A program made the translations under genes and the position numbers. DNA of 21,190 nt, from the IMG/VR virus record IMGVR_UViG_3300048694_000412, positions 1 to 21,190 of that record; one strand, written 5' to 3'. Origin of the DNA: a virus. This document shows, piece by piece, positions 2,035 through 18,148 of the stretch; within the stretch, counting starts at the first letter, position 1; every line of letters begins with the position of its first letter. Under the pieces are notes generated by a model, which worked only from the letters and a program-made list of their open reading frames with translations, made no database searches and was not told the origin of the DNA.

Positions 2035-2553
2035 TTATTCAAATATTTTACTAGAACGAGCTACCTTCTCTGGTTTTGATGTTGAAGTCAACTGTGGCTC
2101 GGCTAATTCTGTTCTTATTGTTTTATCATAGTTGTGCAGCTGAATATAATTTGTTCCAGTAGCACTTGCATTGAGAATTTGCATACGTGCATATTGATGC
2201 AATGTGTCCTGATCATGCATCCGTTTCTCTCTTTTGATACGACGAATGTACGCTCGGAAAATCATTGTAGTAAAGTACGCATGCGGGTTGTTGTACTTCT
2301 CGACGTTGAAGTTGTGTGCCATCAGTACTGCATTCTCAACTCCATCACTAATCATCTCGTCGCGAAACGAATAGTTATAGAAGTTTGGCTTGGTAGACAA
2401 CCTTTGTGCAATCAATAAGAAACACTGGCCCAAGTACTCAGGGAGTCTTGGCGGTGGCTTGCCAGATGACTCCGCGGCCTTTCGTTGTTCCTGATAGATG
2501 CATAGTGCTTCATACATTCTCTTGTTGTTTACATAATGTCTCTTCTTTTTCAT
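2035..2553 (-). CDS. 55: gp55 late-transcription sigma factor
   Basis: This is a T4 gp55-type minimal sigma factor that directs host RNA polymerase to late promoters. At 172 residues it is near the size of T4 gp55 (185). Diagnostic stretches are YVNNKRMYEAL near the N terminus, GVENAVLMAHNFN around residues 71-83, and NPHAYFTTMIFRAYIRRIKREKR around 88-110. The last is the core-binding and -10-like DNA-binding region, with the aromatic AYFT motif shared with the family. The C terminus ends in a hydrophobic-acidic IFE. In T4 the extreme C terminus of gp55 contacts the sliding clamp, so this may do the same (inference). No strong Shine-Dalgarno is present, only AAGTG. The CTAAATA elements elsewhere in the window are its probable targets. 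Confidence 0.93.
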   Translation of the reverse strand: MKKKRHYVNNKRMYEALCIYQEQRKAAESSGKPPPRLPEYLGQCFLLIAQRLSTKPNFYNYSFRDEMISDGVENAVLMAHNFNVEKYNNPHAYFTTMIFRAYIRRIKREKRMHDQDTLHQYARMQILNASATGTNYIQLHNYDKTIRTELAEPQLTSTSKPEKVARSSKIFE

Positions 2554-4975: not shown

Positions 4976-5159
4976 CAGAATCCTGCAGATCTTTTTTCCA
5001 ACTTACTGGTTTATACTCAGTTGCCTTGGGCCAACGGCGATACTTTTTGTAGTAGGCGCGCTCAAAGTCTTTAAAATTTTCTACGTCTTTATGACGAACT
5101 TTAGCAGCAATTTGTTCATTTGACTTTTTTTCTAATAGGAACTGTGCAAATGAGATCAT
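4968..5159 (-). CDS. small basic protein with T4 capsid-targeting-like N terminus (63 aa; candidate internal head protein)
   Basis: The protein begins MISFAQFLLEKKS. This closely resembles the capsid-targeting sequence of T4 internal proteins (MKTYQEFIAE|A), with an aromatic at 4, F at 7 and L-x-E ending at residue 10, where the T4 prohead protease cuts. The remaining 53 residues are strongly basic and aromatic (KDFERAYYKKYRRWPKATEYK), as expected of a DNA-associated packaged protein. The start ATG overlaps the stop of the preceding gp3-like gene (ATGA), which decides it against a longer frame reaching 5207. The motif and context are visible in the sequence. Packaging in the head is inference, and the function after release is unknown. 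Confidence 0.8.
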   Translation of the reverse strand: MISFAQFLLEKKSNEQIAAKVRHKDVENFKDFERAYYKKYRRWPKATEYKPVSWKKDLQDSVD

Positions 5160-5680
5160 GTAATCGCCTCTACGTTGAATGTTTGATACTTGAACGCCGC
5201 AGTACAAGCAACATAGTCAATATCAACAGGCCGTGTATCAAACTGCAAGCTGCCAAGCGAGTATGGGAAGCAGTTGAGAAAGTTAACGACAAAGATTGGA
5301 TTACGGTTTGATGATAGAACAAGTAACTGTATGTCGCTGTATATACCAAGTCCTTGAGACTTATCTTGAACTGCAAGATTTTTGTACTGAGCGGTGTTGT
5401 CTGGAAAGCCAAGTGCCTTCATCCAATTGTAAATTTCAAAGTAGTTTTGAAGCGCCTCATCAACCTTAAATGAGATTTCTAGATCTTGGTATGAAATGTG
5501 ATCGCCCGGCTTAGGAATCTTGACAAATGGCGTTGCCTGGCCGGAATTTGGAATTGCAAACCCGGGAACGTTGACTGACTGAACAAAAAAGTTGATCGCA
5601 GGAGCCCTTTTAATCTGGAACGTGAAATTGACCGGATTAAGAAAGTTGCGATCTGTAGGTACATGATCTAGTGCTGTCAT
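5156..5680 (-). CDS. 3: probable gp3 tail completion and sheath stabiliser protein
   Basis: This 174-residue structural protein is the size of T4 gp3 (176), which caps the tail tube and ends sheath assembly. The pattern is that of the family: NPVNFTFQIKRAPAINFFVQSVNVPG (a tube-fold strand pair), a DLEISFKVDE strand, an NYFEIYNWMKALGFP helix, and a late block FLNCFPYSLGSLQFDTR followed by a CTAAFKYQTF strand. The layout ('P-x-x-LG-x-x-x-F-x...F-Y-x-x-F') is shared with tail-tube-like proteins. A gene 3 just after 23 is the order I associate with marine T4-like phages. It is not the main tube protein, which is at 12694-13305. A different tube-fold paralogue is the main alternative. It has its own promoter-like CTAAGTA. 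Confidence 0.72.
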   Translation of the reverse strand: MTALDHVPTDRNFLNPVNFTFQIKRAPAINFFVQSVNVPGFAIPNSGQATPFVKIPKPGDHISYQDLEISFKVDEALQNYFEIYNWMKALGFPDNTAQYKNLAVQDKSQGLGIYSDIQLLVLSSNRNPIFVVNFLNCFPYSLGSLQFDTRPVDIDYVACTAAFKYQTFNVEAIT

Positions 5681-5716
5681 CTTCGATGTTGTTGCCTCTG
5701 ATACAATTCCTAGTTA

Positions 5717-5723
5717 TACTTAG
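5717..5723 (-). promoter_or_regulatory. variant late-promoter element CTAAGTA before the gp3-like gene
   Basis: On the minus strand, CTAAGTA lies 36 bases before the start at 5680 and just after the terminator that ends the gene 23 transcript. It differs by one base from the CTAAATA element before 18, 19 and 23 and has the same spacing. It would restart transcription for gp3 and the small capsid-targeted-like gene. The single mismatch keeps confidence low. Confidence 0.4.
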
Positions 5724-5728
5724 GTAAT

Positions 5729-5754
5729 AAAAAAAGGGGCGCGGGCGCCCCTTT
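5729..5754 (-). terminator. intrinsic terminator after gene 23
   Basis: On the minus strand the stem is AAAGGGGCGC/GCGCCCCTTT with a two-base CC tip, making seven GC pairs plus three AU pairs. A run of seven or more T follows and leads into ATTACC. It starts 27 bases past the gp23 stop. It is the strongest hairpin I can see in the window and fits a terminator that isolates the very high capsid transcription from downstream genes. The opposite strand has only a weak T-run, so it acts mainly in the minus direction. Confidence 0.92.
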
Positions 5755-8810: not shown

Positions 8811-8818
8811 TATTTATA
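8811..8818 (-). promoter_or_regulatory. late promoter TATAAATA before gene 22
   Basis: An exact T4-type late promoter octamer TATAAATA is read on the minus strand, 27 bases before the ATG at 8783 and in the gap after gene 21. It is the only perfect T4 consensus I find. Its position supports real use of the long start of the scaffold fusion gene. Confidence 0.8.
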
Positions 8819-8819
8819 T

Positions 8820-9485
8820 TTACAGTGTACGCAAGAAACGCTGAAACAATACTAACTGTTGTTCTTCTAATTGCTTAGTAGTTAACTTTGATATTTGTTT
8901 CTTTTGTTCCTGTACCCATTCACCGGTTTTATCGTTATAAAGCCAGTCAACATTCTCAAAGATCCCTTGAACATACGCCTTTTGCGCGGAAGGATCAGCA
9001 ACAACGTCCGCAGCAGTAACAAGCTTGAAGTCCTGTTGTACTTCTAACAATCCACCATCAAGAGGCTTAACCGATCCCATTCCACGAGAACTTACTCCGG
9101 GATTTGCACCACCTTCAATTAGCCCACGGACAATGTTACCCATCGGAGTATCAAGAATCTTTGCGCGGCCAACAATCGTTCCATCTTTCTGGAACTCAAG
9201 ACTTTCGATCAAATGAGATACGCGATCGAGATTAATCGTTGGTCCCTGAGGATGATTGAGCTCACCATAAGCGCGGTTTGTTTTGACACACTCGCGGACG
9301 TATCGTTCTACTTCCGGTCGCATGATTGACTCTGGGTACAAACGATTGTTTCTGTTTGCGCCCTTGAATACATCGTTGTTGTATTGCATGAATACGCCTT
9401 CGATATACAGCTTTTTCTTGCCGCCTTCGGAAGCTTCAACAATAACCGGTTTGATATGTTCCTGTACCTCAGCAAGTAGCTTCAT
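8820..9485 (-). CDS. 21: gp21 prohead core protease
   Basis: This is the serine protease (herpesvirus-assemblin-like fold) inside the prohead that cuts capsid, scaffold and packaged proteins after I/L-x-E. Its 221 residues equal the T4 size closely. Visible motifs are LYIEGVFMQ around 26-34, RNNRLYP at 45-51, GELNHP with probable catalytic His78, and NPGVSSRGMGS with the Ser132-Ser133 active-site pair. The pattern matches T4 gp21 (GELNHP, PGVSSRGLGS). It starts at the ATG immediately after the stop of the 89-residue gene. The C-terminal tail (QEQKKQISKLTTKQLEEQQ) is charged, and gp21 itself is usually self-cleaved. Confidence 0.95.
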   Translation of the reverse strand: MKLLAEVQEHIKPVIVEASEGGKKKLYIEGVFMQYNNDVFKGANRNNRLYPESIMRPEVERYVRECVKTNRAYGELNHPQGPTINLDRVSHLIESLEFQKDGTIVGRAKILDTPMGNIVRGLIEGGANPGVSSRGMGSVKPLDGGLLEVQQDFKLVTAADVVADPSAQKAYVQGIFENVDWLYNDKTGEWVQEQKKQISKLTTKQLEEQQLVLFQRFLRTL

Positions 9486-12693: not shown

Positions 12694-13305
12694 TTACGGA
12701 ACGGCAATAGTAGCAGGGATAGTAGTCAAGTTAGATGGGCTGCTAGAATCAAGAGGATTGCTTCTCCAGTAATCATATGTAAACTCTACAGTAAACATTT
12801 CTAGCTGGTTAGTAGCATCCCAATCCAACTGGATCGGACCAATGTTAACGGGGAAGGCTCCATATAGCCGGCAAACGTAAATTGGCTGTCCTACACCTTC
12901 GAAACCACCTTTGCTATACTGTGTTACAATGATATCTCTTTTGTAATCAGTAGGACTGATAGAACTACCAGCCGGTGTTTCGAGGTTTTCTACCGTACTA
13001 TTCATCTGCTCATGCCAGTTAAGCATAGCATTACGAATTAGAAAATCTTCGTCATTGTAAATTGTTGCTTGCCAATTTGGATAGATTCTATCTCCCATCA
13101 GCTTAATTTTACGTCCGAAGTACCCGACATTGACTTCTTGAATTGTTGACTGAGGCAATGATGCCGCCTTACCGTTCATTGTAAGGGACTGAGATGCCCC
13201 ACCCAAAATTCCAGGCCAATCGAGGATTCGGATATCGAATAGCGCTGGTCTTGCACCATCATTGGGAAGTCCCCGCGCCTTAAATGATTCGACATTGAAT
13301 GACAT
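12694..13305 (-). CDS. 19: gp19 tail tube protein
   Basis: This is the hexameric ring protein of the non-contractile inner tube. At 203 residues it is longer than T4 gp19 (163). Matching stretches are ALFDIRILDWPG, GYFGRKIKLMGDRIYPNWQATIYNDEDFLIRNAMLNWHEQMN (T4: FMNRKINVAGDRTFDDWTVTVMNDE), DIIVTQYSKGG and FPVNIGPIQLDWDATNQLEMFTVEFTYDYW (T4: WPTNVGELQLDWDSNNEIQTFEVTLALDYW). It lies before the portal gene, with a CTAAATA element 25 bases upstream and GGAG before the ATG. The extra length lies mostly in the N-terminal loop and the Ser/Pro/Thr-rich C terminus. Confidence 0.95.
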   Translation of the reverse strand: MSFNVESFKARGLPNDGARPALFDIRILDWPGILGGASQSLTMNGKAASLPQSTIQEVNVGYFGRKIKLMGDRIYPNWQATIYNDEDFLIRNAMLNWHEQMNSTVENLETPAGSSISPTDYKRDIIVTQYSKGGFEGVGQPIYVCRLYGAFPVNIGPIQLDWDATNQLEMFTVEFTYDYWRSNPLDSSSPSNLTTIPATIAVP

Positions 13306-13330
13306 CGATATGTAACTCCTTTGTTTCTTT

Positions 13331-13337
13331 TATTTAG
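13331..13337 (-). promoter_or_regulatory. late promoter element CTAAATA before gene 19
   Basis: On the minus strand, GCTAAATAAA lies 25 bases before the gp19 start and overlaps the stop codon of the homing endonuclease gene. It has the same core as the elements before genes 18 and 23. It would keep tail-tube expression independent of the inserted gene. Confidence 0.72.
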
Positions 13338-13338
13338 C
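13331..13338 (-). repeat. 8-bp direct repeat (copy 1) at the gene 19 side of the homing endonuclease gene
   Basis: GCTAAATA on the minus strand occurs here and again at 13958-13965, bracketing the endonuclease gene exactly. Both copies contain the late-promoter core. It could be a duplication made when the endonuclease gene arrived, or chance recurrence of a common promoter element. Confidence 0.5.
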
Positions 13339-13924
13339 GTTCTTGTCTACGAGGCCTTCCAAATGTCCCCTGTTCTCTTCTTTTCTTTGTAATCGCCGAA
13401 ATCTTAGCCCGAGTTTCGGGTGATCTATTTCGATGTATTTCAGACATCATTGCACAGAACTCAGCTGATCTCTTTTGTCCCATTCTCGATTGACTCATTT
13501 TTTGTTTAGTTTGTTCTGATGCTTTTGTTCCCAACCTAATCAGACGAATTTTTTGTTTATGTTCTTCAGACTTTGGCCGACCTTTGGCAGCAGCACTCAT
13601 TTTTTGTTTAGTTTCTTCTGAATGAGATTTTCCTCGCATCGATGGAGTATTAGCATTGTTAGAGATATTGTAATAACGAGTTCCGAGATCAGACACATTG
13701 ATTAAATCTAACCATCGCTGTTCCTCCAATACCAAAGCCTGTTTGTCGTTTACTATAGAAACAATTCTTCTCTTGAAATCAAGAGGCCTTCGTTGAAAGG
13801 CGGTCTTCATTCTTCTTGAAGAACAAATATAACCATCATCTTTGTGCCCCCAATGTCGCCCCAAATAAAACATGCTGTGTTTTCTATCAAACCAAATGTA
13901 AATGAATCCGTATTGTTCGAGCAT
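13334..13924 (-). CDS. free-standing GIY-YIG homing endonuclease with NUMOD3 repeats (Seg-like)
   Basis: This is a mobile site-specific endonuclease of 196 residues. The GIY-YIG core is visible: FIY at 7-9, ten residues later YLG at 20-22, then Arg37/38 in a GYICSSRR loop, and a catalytic Glu67/68 in LEEQRWLD. After YYNIS (around 84-88) the C-terminal half contains about five NUMOD3-type DNA-binding repeats, each ending near a K-M-S or K-I-S (SEETKQKMSAA, SEEHKQKIRLI, SEQTKQKMSQS, SAEFCAMMSEI, SPETRAKISAI). Such genes spread by cutting relatives that lack them. It sits between the sheath and tube genes and interrupts the usual 18-19 adjacency. The frame is intact, so it may be active. AGAG lies eight bases before the ATG. 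Confidence 0.96.
   Translation of the reverse strand: MLEQYGFIYIWFDRKHSMFYLGRHWGHKDDGYICSSRRMKTAFQRRPLDFKRRIVSIVNDKQALVLEEQRWLDLINVSDLGTRYYNISNNANTPSMRGKSHSEETKQKMSAAAKGRPKSEEHKQKIRLIRLGTKASEQTKQKMSQSRMGQKRSAEFCAMMSEIHRNRSPETRAKISAITKKRREQGTFGRPRRQER
13334..13924 (-). mobile_element. homing endonuclease insertion between genes 18 and 19
   Basis: The endonuclease gene plus one flanking promoter copy forms a unit absent from the normal 18-19 junction of T4-like phages. It carries no intron: both neighbouring genes are complete, so it is a free-standing intergenic element that interrupts no reading frame. Confidence 0.75.
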
Positions 13925-13957
13925 TGAATAGTCTCTTTTGATGTTGTCTCCAGAGAC

Positions 13958-13964
13958 TATTTAG
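13958..13964 (-). promoter_or_regulatory. late promoter element CTAAATA before the homing endonuclease gene
   Basis: On the minus strand, GCTAAATAGT lies 33 bases before the endonuclease ATG and just past the end of gene 18. It may be the ancestral gene 19 promoter or one that came with the element. A GTCTC-CA-GAGAC palindrome (13946-13957) follows it immediately. Confidence 0.65.
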
Positions 13965-13965
13965 C
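13958..13965 (-). repeat. 8-bp direct repeat (copy 2) at the gene 18 side of the homing endonuclease gene
   Basis: This is the second copy of GCTAAATA (minus strand), 8 of 8 identical to 13331-13338. Identity does not extend beyond the eight bases on either side. Confidence 0.5.
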
Positions 13966-13973
13966 TTTGAAAG

Positions 13974-16454
13974 TTACCCTCCGAACTTGCCGATTACCTC
14001 GGTAAACGATGTACCAGTACGTACTGCAACAAAGTTTAGAGTGATGAAGTTGATCGAACGTGCAGGTTTAATGTAAATATCACCAACAAATTCGTTACGA
14101 TCGATTACCTCAGCAGTGTTGTTTGTAGAATCGCAGACAACGAAGAAGTCTGTAATACCACGACGACCCTGAACATCACGCAGGTAAGGAGTTACCATGC
14201 TCTTAAACAACTGACGAGTGAACTCATCGTTGAATTCGAACAATAGATAATCAGATGCCTTGCTGATTGCTTTCTCAAGAACAATGAACAGACGACGTAC
14301 GTTGATACGATCGAATGCAGATGGCTTTGCTAGAAGAGTCTTATCTCCATATAGAACAGTTCCGCGTCCTGGGAATGTTACAACTGGATTGACTCCAGCC
14401 TTGTATAGTTCGTCACGGTCTGCCTGACGAGGACTATATGCCAACGAAACAATGTTCTTGATCTGGCCACGATTGAATCCGGCAGGAGACCACCATGCAT
14501 CATTTGTATAGTCTGTACGTACGCAAAGACCAGCAGTGTCGCCATTCAATGGAATCCAACGATACATGTCATTGTATCGGTCATACATCTTCTTGTATCC
14601 GCTATCAAGAACACCGTAAGAAGATGATCGCAACTCATTTCTGAATAGAATGATTGCATCTGCTTCATTACCTAGGTTATTGACAACATCGCCCTTCTGA
14701 GGAGATATCAGAGCAATACAATCCATACGAGGCTCACAGATATTATCAATCAAGTAGTTTGCCAGTGTTACAGATCGCGCCTTACCCTGTAGAACAAGTG
14801 AAATGTCGACATCTTCCTTAGACTTGAACAGATCATATGCGTTAAGTAGGTTACCGATTGCGATGTTAGCTTCATCAGCACCATCGTTACCGTAAGCAAG
14901 ACTTAGACTATTAACGTCTAGTGTACTGTCGGTTAGATTAAGTGCAGCTGCAGATGCCGCTCCGGACATATCATTGACAGCATATACATACTGTGAACGA
15001 TCGTTAATTGCTGTACGCCAGTAGTTAACTGCACCGTCAATTGTCTTTGCGTCGGTTGCACGAGATAGGCCACGATAGACTTCTAGGATTTCTCCAGGAA
15101 GACCAGTAAATCCACCATCTTCATCAACAACCACAACATGCATTTCGTCGCTGTTGATCGCGCTGTTGCCAAAGTTGATTACATATTCAGACTGCCCAGG
15201 CGCACCATCAACGACGTTGAAGAACTCCCAGAAACGATTAAATGTAGAGACGTTTGCACTGCTGTAAGTAATATCAACTCCTAGCTTATAAGGCTGCTCG
15301 AAGTTAATCGTGAATGTTGCACGTGGAGTAAACGAAGTTGTGTTTGCAGTTGTGTTAACCGTTGGTGCAGATGTTGTATAAAATGCAGTACTGTTAACAA
15401 CGTTGTTAACAACTAGGTCATCAAGCGAGCTGTTTGCAGAACTACGAAGAATCATACCAGCTGCAACGCCGGCAGTAGTGTTTGCAATAACAAGTGTGTT
15501 GCCGCTAACAGTTGTTACTGTAGCGTTAACAGTTGTCGTACCATGAGTCTGTGTAGCACCAAATTCGGTGATACGCATATACTCAGTACCAATTGAAGTG
15601 TTACCTACTTCAAGTCGGTCTGTTACTCCAACGTCAGTCTTGAATGCAATTGCTGCAGCAAGAAGGTTAGTTGAGTTTGCAGCAAGAATTTCAACCGTAG
15701 CGGTGTTGCTATTTGTTACAATAGGAACAACTGCACGAGTACCGTAGTCTGCAAGATCGATTGTCGACTGATATCCAGATGCATTTGCGCAAACAGAGAC
15801 ACGCAGCGAGTTACCAAGAGCACCGGGATAGCGAGCAACCCAGGTGATGTTAGGATCAAATGATCCATCCATATGTAGGAAATCTTGGTCGTTACGAACA
15901 ATAGCTAGCTCAAGGTTTGCAATAGATCCAGTATTTGCAATAGCAGTGAACGCGGTATTAGAGATAAACTGAATAACGTCGCCAGTTGTATTTGCTAGCG
16001 CCTGTGATCCACTTGCAAGAGTGAATGCAGTGCTGTTAACAATCGACTGAACGGTTGCGCCTGCAACGACACCGCTGTTACCAGAATTGATTACTGTGTA
16101 TCCAGCATGCAGATTCGTTGTGTTCCCCGACGAAAGAATTACTGTACTGTTGCCAGCCTGTACAGTACATGTTGCGCTAGGAGACACACCTGCAGTATTA
16201 GCTGCACGAGAGACATAGAGCTGATTACCATAAGATAGGAACGAAGCGGCCGTGAAGAATGTTTCCGGGTTAAGGTTTGTTGGCTTGCCGTAGCGCTTTA
16301 CTAGATATTGTTCCGAATCAACAAGCGTGCGATGACCAACAGGACCCCATCTGAAAACACCACCGATAGCACCTTCCGTAGTTGATACAGAAGGGATGAT
16401 CCCAGAAAGATCAATCTCTCTTACCAACTTACCAGGTGAAACGAGATTTGCCAT
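13974..16454 (-). CDS. 18: gp18 contractile tail sheath protein with two inserted repeats
   Basis: This is the sheath subunit that contracts to drive the tube through the host envelope. At 826 residues it is much longer than T4 gp18 (659). The N terminus (VSPGKLVREIDLSGIIPSVSTT, GGVFRWGPVG) and the C-terminal half (YSPRQADRDELYKAGVNPVVTFPGRGTVLYGDKTLL, FNDEFTRQLFKSMVTPYLRDVQGRRGI, FITLNFVAVRTGTSF) are classic sheath. Between about 90 and 380 there are two Asn/Ser/Thr-rich beta-type segments (about 96-165 and 305-375) that resemble each other, both with AG-(Y/M) and VVNSTAF/IVNSTAF-type landmarks. They probably form surface-exposed domains like T4 domains I-II. AAAGGGAGAG precedes the ATG. Confidence 0.95.
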   Translation of the reverse strand: MANLVSPGKLVREIDLSGIIPSVSTTEGAIGGVFRWGPVGHRTLVDSEQYLVKRYGKPTNLNPETFFTAASFLSYGNQLYVSRAANTAGVSPSATCTVQAGNSTVILSSGNTTNLHAGYTVINSGNSGVVAGATVQSIVNSTAFTLASGSQALANTTGDVIQFISNTAFTAIANTGSIANLELAIVRNDQDFLHMDGSFDPNITWVARYPGALGNSLRVSVCANASGYQSTIDLADYGTRAVVPIVTNSNTATVEILAANSTNLLAAAIAFKTDVGVTDRLEVGNTSIGTEYMRITEFGATQTHGTTTVNATVTTVSGNTLVIANTTAGVAAGMILRSSANSSLDDLVVNNVVNSTAFYTTSAPTVNTTANTTSFTPRATFTINFEQPYKLGVDITYSSANVSTFNRFWEFFNVVDGAPGQSEYVINFGNSAINSDEMHVVVVDEDGGFTGLPGEILEVYRGLSRATDAKTIDGAVNYWRTAINDRSQYVYAVNDMSGAASAAALNLTDSTLDVNSLSLAYGNDGADEANIAIGNLLNAYDLFKSKEDVDISLVLQGKARSVTLANYLIDNICEPRMDCIALISPQKGDVVNNLGNEADAIILFRNELRSSSYGVLDSGYKKMYDRYNDMYRWIPLNGDTAGLCVRTDYTNDAWWSPAGFNRGQIKNIVSLAYSPRQADRDELYKAGVNPVVTFPGRGTVLYGDKTLLAKPSAFDRINVRRLFIVLEKAISKASDYLLFEFNDEFTRQLFKSMVTPYLRDVQGRRGITDFFVVCDSTNNTAEVIDRNEFVGDIYIKPARSINFITLNFVAVRTGTSFTEVIGKFGG

Positions 16455-16504: not shown

Positions 16505-18148
16505 TTATTTAGGGAAAAGTGAATCTTCAGCGGCGATCGTCCATGAGTCGCCACCTTCAACTATATATTGAGTATTTTCAGGCTGAGTTCCATCATCTAC
16601 TCTAAAAGCAATCAAGTCTTGCATAAGTTGTTCGTCTTTTATCTCACGCAATTTGATCAAAGTACTTATGTCTGTTGCTTCTTTAAAGTATCGTTGTTCT
16701 GTAACCCATGCAAACAATACTAGACACATTACTAGATCGTCATGGCAACCTTCTTCCGCAGCATAACTATTGTTCTTCTTAGAAAATGTTGCTAACTCTT
16801 GTATAGTATCAAAGTCATGGACAAGTAGCTGGTCGCCCTCAATTAGTAGTTTGAGCATCGAGCAACCAACGTTCTTGACAGTCTTCGTTGTTCGGATTCC
16901 ACGATCTATTCCTTTGCCATATTGCATCGTTATCCGCTTGCCGGCAGATCCAGCAGAAGCAGTATGTAGAACGTGCTCATACTCATAATCAAAGTACAAT
17001 GTATCTGCTGTCTGCTGACCAATATCGTTAATCTCAACAAGTATACCAGCAGTGTTATATTCCTTACCAATTCGGTTGCATATTTCAGCAAAGTCTGCCG
17101 GTGTTGTCGTGTTATCACGAAACACACATACTTGCTGATAAGGCATCATTGTCACGTCAATTACTTGCAACGCACAATAGTCAAGTCCCTTACCACGCGA
17201 AACGTCCGCAACAGCAAAATAGCTGTGGCCAACAATTGGTTTTTGGTATAAACTGAGGCCATTTTTGTTTGACAACGGTACTTGAGGGACTAGTTGTTGC
17301 AACTTCGTACCAGATATTAGAGTACCAGAAGAACCTAAGTAACGATTTTCGAATTCTTGTGCAAATCGATCTTCATCAAAGTTCATTGCGGCAAGAGTAT
17401 CTTGCTTCCATTTGAGATCTCTTCCGGGGACTGCTTGCCATGGAATTGAGATTAGCTTATAGTTGTTTTGGCCCTGTCTTGCAAGCGACGTTATCTTATA
17501 AAAGTGGTTCAGTCCATTAACTGTACTGATCAGAACAATCTTGGTTGTTTGACCAGATGTGATTGTAGGAAGAACCGACGTAAAGAATTTATCCCACCCT
17601 TCAATAAATGCAGCCTCGTCAATAATCAGCAGGTTGATTGCATAACCACGAATGTTATTTGAGCTCGTTGCAGCTGCAATTACTCGGCTACCATTCTCGA
17701 GCTCAAAAGATCCTTTATTCCATTCGATTACACCCTGCTGCATCCACTTTGGGAGATGCTCATATGCAAGCTGGATACGAGAAAGGATTTCACGGGCAGT
17801 CTCTGCTTTGTTGGCAAGAATAGCAACCGTCTTGTTCTCGTTGAATAGAATGTAGTGAAGAACAATACAAGTAATAGCTGTAGTCTTTCCACTCTGCCGG
17901 GCGCATTCCGCTACAGTATATCTTTCTTTATATACAGTCTCAATAATCTCTTTCTGGTAATCATACAATTCAATTGTCATCAAACCTTTATCGACGTTAA
18001 CAATCGACATGTGGTTTTCTGAGAAATACACAGGGTCACTAGCACACTTAACATACTCTTGGACTAATTCAGGAGTCCACTGTATAGCTACATTTGATCG
18101 TTTAAGTGTACCAGATCCGCGATAGCCACGAAACTCTGGCTTATTCAT
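16505..18148 (-). CDS. 17: gp17 large terminase (packaging ATPase and nuclease)
   Basis: This is the motor that drives DNA into the head and cuts the concatemer. At 547 residues it is just under T4 gp17 (610). ATPase domain: an adenine-binding YDYQ at 62-65, Walker A ARQSGKTT at 83-90, Walker B LLIIDEAA at 173-180, and the coupling motif around ISTVNG at 207-212. RNase H-like nuclease domain: ADVSRGKGLD with D315, EIND with E372, and CHDDLVM with D470/D471, the expected acidic triad. The start overlaps the previous stop (ATGA). Its last codons overlap the CTAAATA element of gene 18. Gene 16 is close upstream but separated from it by an unknown gene. Confidence 0.97.
   Translation of the reverse strand: MNKPEFRGYRGSGTLKRSNVAIQWTPELVQEYVKCASDPVYFSENHMSIVNVDKGLMTIELYDYQKEIIETVYKERYTVAECARQSGKTTAITCIVLHYILFNENKTVAILANKAETAREILSRIQLAYEHLPKWMQQGVIEWNKGSFELENGSRVIAAATSSNNIRGYAINLLIIDEAAFIEGWDKFFTSVLPTITSGQTTKIVLISTVNGLNHFYKITSLARQGQNNYKLISIPWQAVPGRDLKWKQDTLAAMNFDEDRFAQEFENRYLGSSGTLISGTKLQQLVPQVPLSNKNGLSLYQKPIVGHSYFAVADVSRGKGLDYCALQVIDVTMMPYQQVCVFRDNTTTPADFAEICNRIGKEYNTAGILVEINDIGQQTADTLYFDYEYEHVLHTASAGSAGKRITMQYGKGIDRGIRTTKTVKNVGCSMLKLLIEGDQLLVHDFDTIQELATFSKKNNSYAAEEGCHDDLVMCLVLFAWVTEQRYFKEATDISTLIKLREIKDEQLMQDLIAFRVDDGTQPENTQYIVEGGDSWTIAAEDSLFPK
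16506..16512 (-). promoter_or_regulatory. late promoter element CTAAATA before gene 18
   Basis: On the minus strand, CCTAAATAAC overlaps the last codons of gene 17 and lies 51 bases before the gp18 ATG, a longer leader than at the other sites. It shares the core with those before 19, 23 and the endonuclease gene. Confidence 0.7.

Follow-up and report, generated by a model that had tools for sequence, protein, structure and literature searches.

A homing endonuclease (HE) gene located between the tail sheath gene 18 and the tail tube gene 19 of a T4-type virus, with the octamer GCTAAATA at both of its edges, raises two questions: to which gene does each copy of this promoter-like element belong, and how can the endonuclease reside between essential tail genes without harm? 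The window analyzed here, i.e. the whole stretch of 21,190 bp, is the entire IMG/VR record, which is itself a fragment of this length and no more. The reading that we favor, with a probability of roughly 0.8, is that a freestanding GIY-YIG endonuclease cassette, carrying its own late promoter fused to a hairpin over its ribosome-binding site (RBS), was inserted upstream of the resident promoter of gene 19.

The endonuclease gene and the late promoters of the window

The 196-aa open reading frame at positions 13334..13924 (minus strand), flanked by gene 18 (tail sheath protein, 13974..16454, minus strand) and gene 19 (tail tube protein, 12694..13305, minus strand), is, on the evidence of profile matches, motifs and a structural model, a freestanding GIY-YIG/NUMOD3 homing endonuclease. 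NUMOD3 repeats were recognized in four stretches of the protein (PF07460, 7.1e-13), and it matches the phrog_314 homing endonuclease (5.9e-26) and possesses the catalytic motifs GFxY and YxG, with E68 and N86 invariant across 42 homologues. The top match of its AlphaFold model (pLDDT 88) among solved structures was the catalytic domain of I-TevI, with a probability of 1.00 and a modest E-value of only 0.026; the Pfam SegE_GIY-YIG match fell below its cut-off, and searching the PDB by sequence with the HE profile returned nothing useful. The protein combines the features of the Seg-like class, namely a GIY-YIG domain with its catalytic residues and, as an accessory feature, NUMOD3-type DNA-binding repeats. 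The preliminary description of this locus, which placed a homing endonuclease gene between gp18 and gp19, is thus borne out. The HE is present in the 18|19 junction of some phages and absent from that of others, a distribution that is consistent with homing rather than proof of it, and the protein would be expected to act by cleavage and homing.

The window has exactly two copies of the octamer GCTAAATA, at positions 13331-13338 and 13958-13965. Both are on the minus strand, as are all genes from the terminase to the capsid. As a bare 8-mer it carries no significance, since 0.77 copies are expected by chance and two or more copies were found in 17 of 100 shuffles. As a promoter, its placement is significant: TAAATA is the core of the late promoter of this phage, and each of the six minus-strand TAAATA sites in the window is followed by a start codon 31-58 nt downstream (binomial p about 2e-9 under a model of random placement), in agreement with the earlier view of both repeats as late-promoter-like. 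These sites precede the genes for gp18 (CCTAAATA), HE (GCTAAATA), gp19 (GCTAAATA), gp22 (TATAAATA/TGTAAATA) and gp23 (ACTAAATA); the gene 18 promoter (16506..16513, minus strand) shares bases with the gene 17 stop codon. The presence of T4-type late promoters is consistent with the gp55-like late sigma factor encoded at positions 2035..2553 (minus strand). The repeat was also correctly described as lying at both edges of the endonuclease, but the gene is not exactly between the copies, because its stop codon TAA (13334-13336) falls inside the downstream one.

Other features of the window were noted in passing. Upstream of the scaffold gene gp22, two late promoters, TGTAAATA and TATAAATA, overlap at positions 8811-8824; the window has no other copy of the canonical TATAAATA. 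Immediately downstream of the major capsid gene, positions 5156-5680 encode a second tail-tube-like protein (phrog_45), and upstream of it, at about 5700-5750, an inverted repeat GGGCGCCCGCGCCC of very high G+C content precedes a T run and constitutes a strong terminator-like signal. In many relatives, an endonuclease of the same family is found between the major capsid gene and the phrog_45 tail-tube-like gene.

Assignment of the two promoter copies

A scan of viral contigs with the leader motif TAAATA-N(3-7)-GAGATAAYATCAAAG yielded 18 stretches, 14 of them directly before endonucleases of the same family as the HE of the window: five after gp18, two after a protein ending in VRRLVEWYMRVKKSG, five after proteins ending in DGGTF or DGGSF, and two others. 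The remaining four stretches had neither an ORF start nor a matching 3' arm behind the motif. Since the leader precedes family endonucleases at several loci, the upstream copy of GCTAAATA (13958..13965, minus strand) travels with the HE and is assigned to the cassette as its late promoter. The suggestion that the element carries a promoter copy is thereby favored, the same promoter-hairpin leader being found before homologous endonucleases at unrelated sites; its extension, that gene 19 expression would be preserved whatever the orientation of arrival, is not supported, as the promoter points one way only, into the HE.

The downstream copy was assigned from junctions without the endonuclease. 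Among 55 HE-less 18|19 junctions, one TAAATA was found in 47, none in four and two in four, and the single promoter in most of them identifies the downstream copy (13331..13338, minus strand) as the resident late promoter of gene 19. A single promoter in relatives lacking the endonuclease had been proposed as a sign of duplication; it was indeed observed, but duplication and a carried promoter cannot be told apart by it. The nearest empty relative, L288, whose gp19 is only 60% identical, has a single TATAAATA in this junction. The Emdodecaviruses (phiM12 group) could not be used as empty 18|19 sites because no gene 19 is annotated beside their gene 18. A close relative that does contain the endonuclease is L001, with gp19 at least 99.5% identical and the HE 92% identical; it has GCTAAATA before the HE and ACTAAATA before gene 19, and the different letters at the latter copy indicate that the TAAATA core is kept, rather than identity over 8 bp.

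The promoter region could in addition, or instead, be an operator, the endonuclease binding near its own promoter and repressing it as I-TevI does, possibly together with the hairpin described below. We consider this unlikely. Autorepression is known for I-TevI (PMC2988022), and the HE leader has a weak similarity to the start of gene 19 (score 12), but 47 of 1000 shuffles scored as well, the similar stretch includes the shared Shine-Dalgarno sequence and ATG, and the similarity is partly lost in L001, in which gene 19 is unchanged. The resemblance of an I-TevI-like operator to the 18/19 junction is only marginal, and it was set aside.

Very improbable, in our estimate, is the reading according to which the two copies of GCTAAATA are a target-site duplication or a microhomology repeat from the arrival of the HE, the gene 19 promoter having been duplicated by the insertion, as the preliminary description also proposed. 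The exact 8-bp match, which can be extended to 10 of 11 bases, would fit this origin, as would the mostly single TAAATA of empty relatives and the overlap of the HE stop codon with TAAATA in 19 of 79 homologues, compared with 17 of 377 control ORFs. The sister phage L001, however, has ACTAAATA at one of the copies, and the leader that contains the upstream copy moves with endonucleases to other sites; an 8-bp target-site duplication was rejected as the main reading on these two grounds. Homing by double-strand-break repair, moreover, leaves no target-site duplication. The overlap of stop codons and promoters is common in these compact genomes, being found in 47 of 226 cases of a matched control and at gp17|gp18 of the window itself, so that genome compactness explains much of the overlap at HE ends. 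A special targeting of HE ends to TAAATA was likewise set aside: the contrast with the crude control is strong (19/79 vs 17/377), whereas the matched comparison, 6/8 vs 47/226, is small.

Besides the window and L001, an HE was found in the 18|19 junction of L004 (identities of 46% for gp18, 41% for gp19 and 40% for the HE) and of contigs L122, L147, L213, L224, L228 and L270; in other relatives it is located at 19|20 or downstream of gp23. The protein ending in VRRLVEWYMRVKKSG in the viral contig L005 is a PrkA kinase with DUF444 downstream, and an HE separates these two genes there (L005:484-3791), preceded by a leader nearly as in the window. The terminase gene of L006:2-2446 has an apparent intein-like insertion, and the gene behind it is an HE of the same family.

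A hairpin overlapping the promoter and the Shine-Dalgarno sequence

The HE leader GCTAAATAGTCTCTGGAGACAACATCAAAAGAGACTATTCAATG contains a perfect 10-bp inverted repeat, a feature absent from the preliminary description. The 5' arm AATAGTCTCT (13952..13961, minus strand) begins with an AATA that it has in common with the promoter, while GTCTC fills the gap between the promoter and the predicted transcription start; the 3' arm AGAGACTATT (13927..13936, minus strand) holds the Shine-Dalgarno-like AGAG (13933-13936) of the HE, to which the five gap bases GTCTC are an anti-Shine-Dalgarno. The distance from the T of TAAATA to the ATG of the HE is 39 nt. T4 late promoters have their box roughly one turn of the helix before the start (PMC2988020); this spacing places the predicted start just behind GTCTC, at the sixth base after the promoter (13952, minus strand), so that a transcript from there would keep just the last base of the 5' arm. 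Because the predicted start immediately follows the anti-Shine-Dalgarno bases, translation would be expected only for transcripts beginning at this point. In folding predictions, the full hairpin has an energy of -11.9 kcal/mol (z -4.5) and the RNA truncated at 13952 one of -4.0 kcal/mol, on par with shuffles, and the modelled openness of the Shine-Dalgarno, which is weak (AGAG), rises from 0.01 in the read-through RNA to 0.27 in the late RNA. No strong structure was predicted over GGAG, the Shine-Dalgarno of gene 19 (13316..13319, minus strand).

Another reading, which we rate as very improbable, takes the hairpin for an intrinsic terminator that ends gene 18 transcription instead of an RBS switch. 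A T run between hairpin and ATG in many relatives speaks for it, as does the presence, in the 18|19 junctions of L305 and L342, of orphan hairpins that lack an HE. In the window and L001, however, the stem runs directly into CAATG with no T run, and the window hairpin was not reported by a terminator scan; on these grounds the reading was rejected for the window. Also against it, the Shine-Dalgarno lies within the 3' arm, and most relatives have a helix that begins in the promoter. The hairpins of those relatives in which a T run does follow could also terminate transcription.

Comparison of homologous leaders establishes the hairpin as a family feature. A compensatory change from U-A to C-G is present at the top of the stem in L001. 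Of 50 homologous leaders, gathered by protein similarity alone, 37 have a helix of at least 7 bp beginning within TAAATA; among other late genes the count is 10 of 197 (p 7e-24, a value that is too small because homologous leaders are not independent). When eight leaders of equal length were aligned, 98.8% of cells were paired and seven cells had changed on both sides; none of 500 shuffles paired as well, and slid pairings reached 41-60%. A pattern scan, not protein similarity, was the source of one of the eight aligned rows and of one more in the longer list. The stem is invariant on its promoter side, while the gap positions vary through C-G, U-A, G-C and A-U pairs. The modelled openness of the Shine-Dalgarno in the 50 HE leaders was 0.20 for read-through RNA vs 0.56 for the late start; the corresponding values for non-HE late genes were 0.39 and 0.51, a control that is conservative, as it includes loci fetched by the hairpin pattern. 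The same layout of promoter and hairpin, with different stem sequences, precedes the endonucleases of the Sinorhizobium phages phiM12, phiM7 and phiN3 and of the Rhizobium phage RHph_I1_18, which are 35-43% identical to the HE of the window at the protein level and are located at other genomic sites.

Relation to known systems and proposed mechanism

A late promoter and an RBS hairpin were reportedly described by Gott in 1988 for I-TevI of the T4 td intron. The mechanism combining these two elements has been described for I-TevI, I-TevII, I-TevIII, segB and mobE (PMC2988022), and the leader in the window shares two of its features, a late promoter immediately upstream of the ORF and a Shine-Dalgarno paired in the read-through RNA, the latter by prediction and covariation. 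I-TevI resembles the HE of the window in being a GIY-YIG endonuclease whose late RNA is without the 5' strand of an RBS-sequestering hairpin; it is, however, intron-encoded in an early/middle transcript, whereas the HE is a freestanding gene flanked by late structural genes on both sides. T4 segB and mobE of phage Aeh1 are, like the HE, freestanding endonucleases with a late promoter and an RBS hairpin (PMC2988022). The HE differs from them in its site (18|19) and in belonging to a NUMOD3-rich lineage, and in the HE and many of its relatives, unlike in segB and mobE, the stem has the promoter box itself as its base. The leaders of T4 gene e (lysozyme), soc and 49 also have RNA structure over the translation start, and the late-started RNA of gene e is without the 5' strand of the inhibitory structure (PMC3014915); these are ordinary phage genes, whereas the HE is a mobile cassette. 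Control by a late promoter and a hairpin is thus already known in T4, and is found here in a whole family of environmental T4-type viruses. The I-TevI/mobE type of control is thereby widened from a handful of cases to a family of freestanding environmental endonucleases, with covariation and a control set.

According to the mechanism that we propose, RNA reading through from gene 18 would contain the whole hairpin, in which the Shine-Dalgarno of the HE is paired, and translation of the endonuclease would be low. RNA initiated at the cassette promoter, about 5 nt past the TAAATA box, could not form the hairpin, and the HE would be translated. Gene 19 would retain its own promoter and Shine-Dalgarno downstream of the insertion, and since this promoter is kept, the insertion should be nearly neutral. 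A harmless stay between essential tail genes could be explained in this way, by landing before a resident promoter and having its own translation off on read-through RNA.

With gene 18 itself a late gene, the classical early-to-late switch is not applicable as such, and the switch would presumably part the endonuclease from structural RNA, which is abundant, and not from early RNA. Thus, the question arises whether the switch serves timing or keeps the nuclease off abundant structural transcripts. A more far-reaching proposal, which we advance as speculative and rather doubtful, is a promoter-to-promoter module: the TAAATA at the left edge and the resident one at the right edge would be interchangeable junctions, allowing microhomology splicing into any late T4-type intergenic region, and the hairpin would uncouple the HE from late structural RNA, not change its timing.

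Two further observations concern leaders outside the endonuclease family. A palindromic leader of the form TAAATACTCC...GGAGTATTT is also present before non-HE genes, e.g. gp18 and genes whose products start with MAGNAKETAKQ, with cases in L101, L104, L106, L108, L111, L117, L134, L136, L160, L161 and L169. L305 and L342 (L342:2890-2990) have hairpins but no HE in their 18|19 junctions; the loop GAGATAACATCAA of the L342 hairpin matches HE leaders, and this hairpin is possibly a relic of a lost endonuclease.
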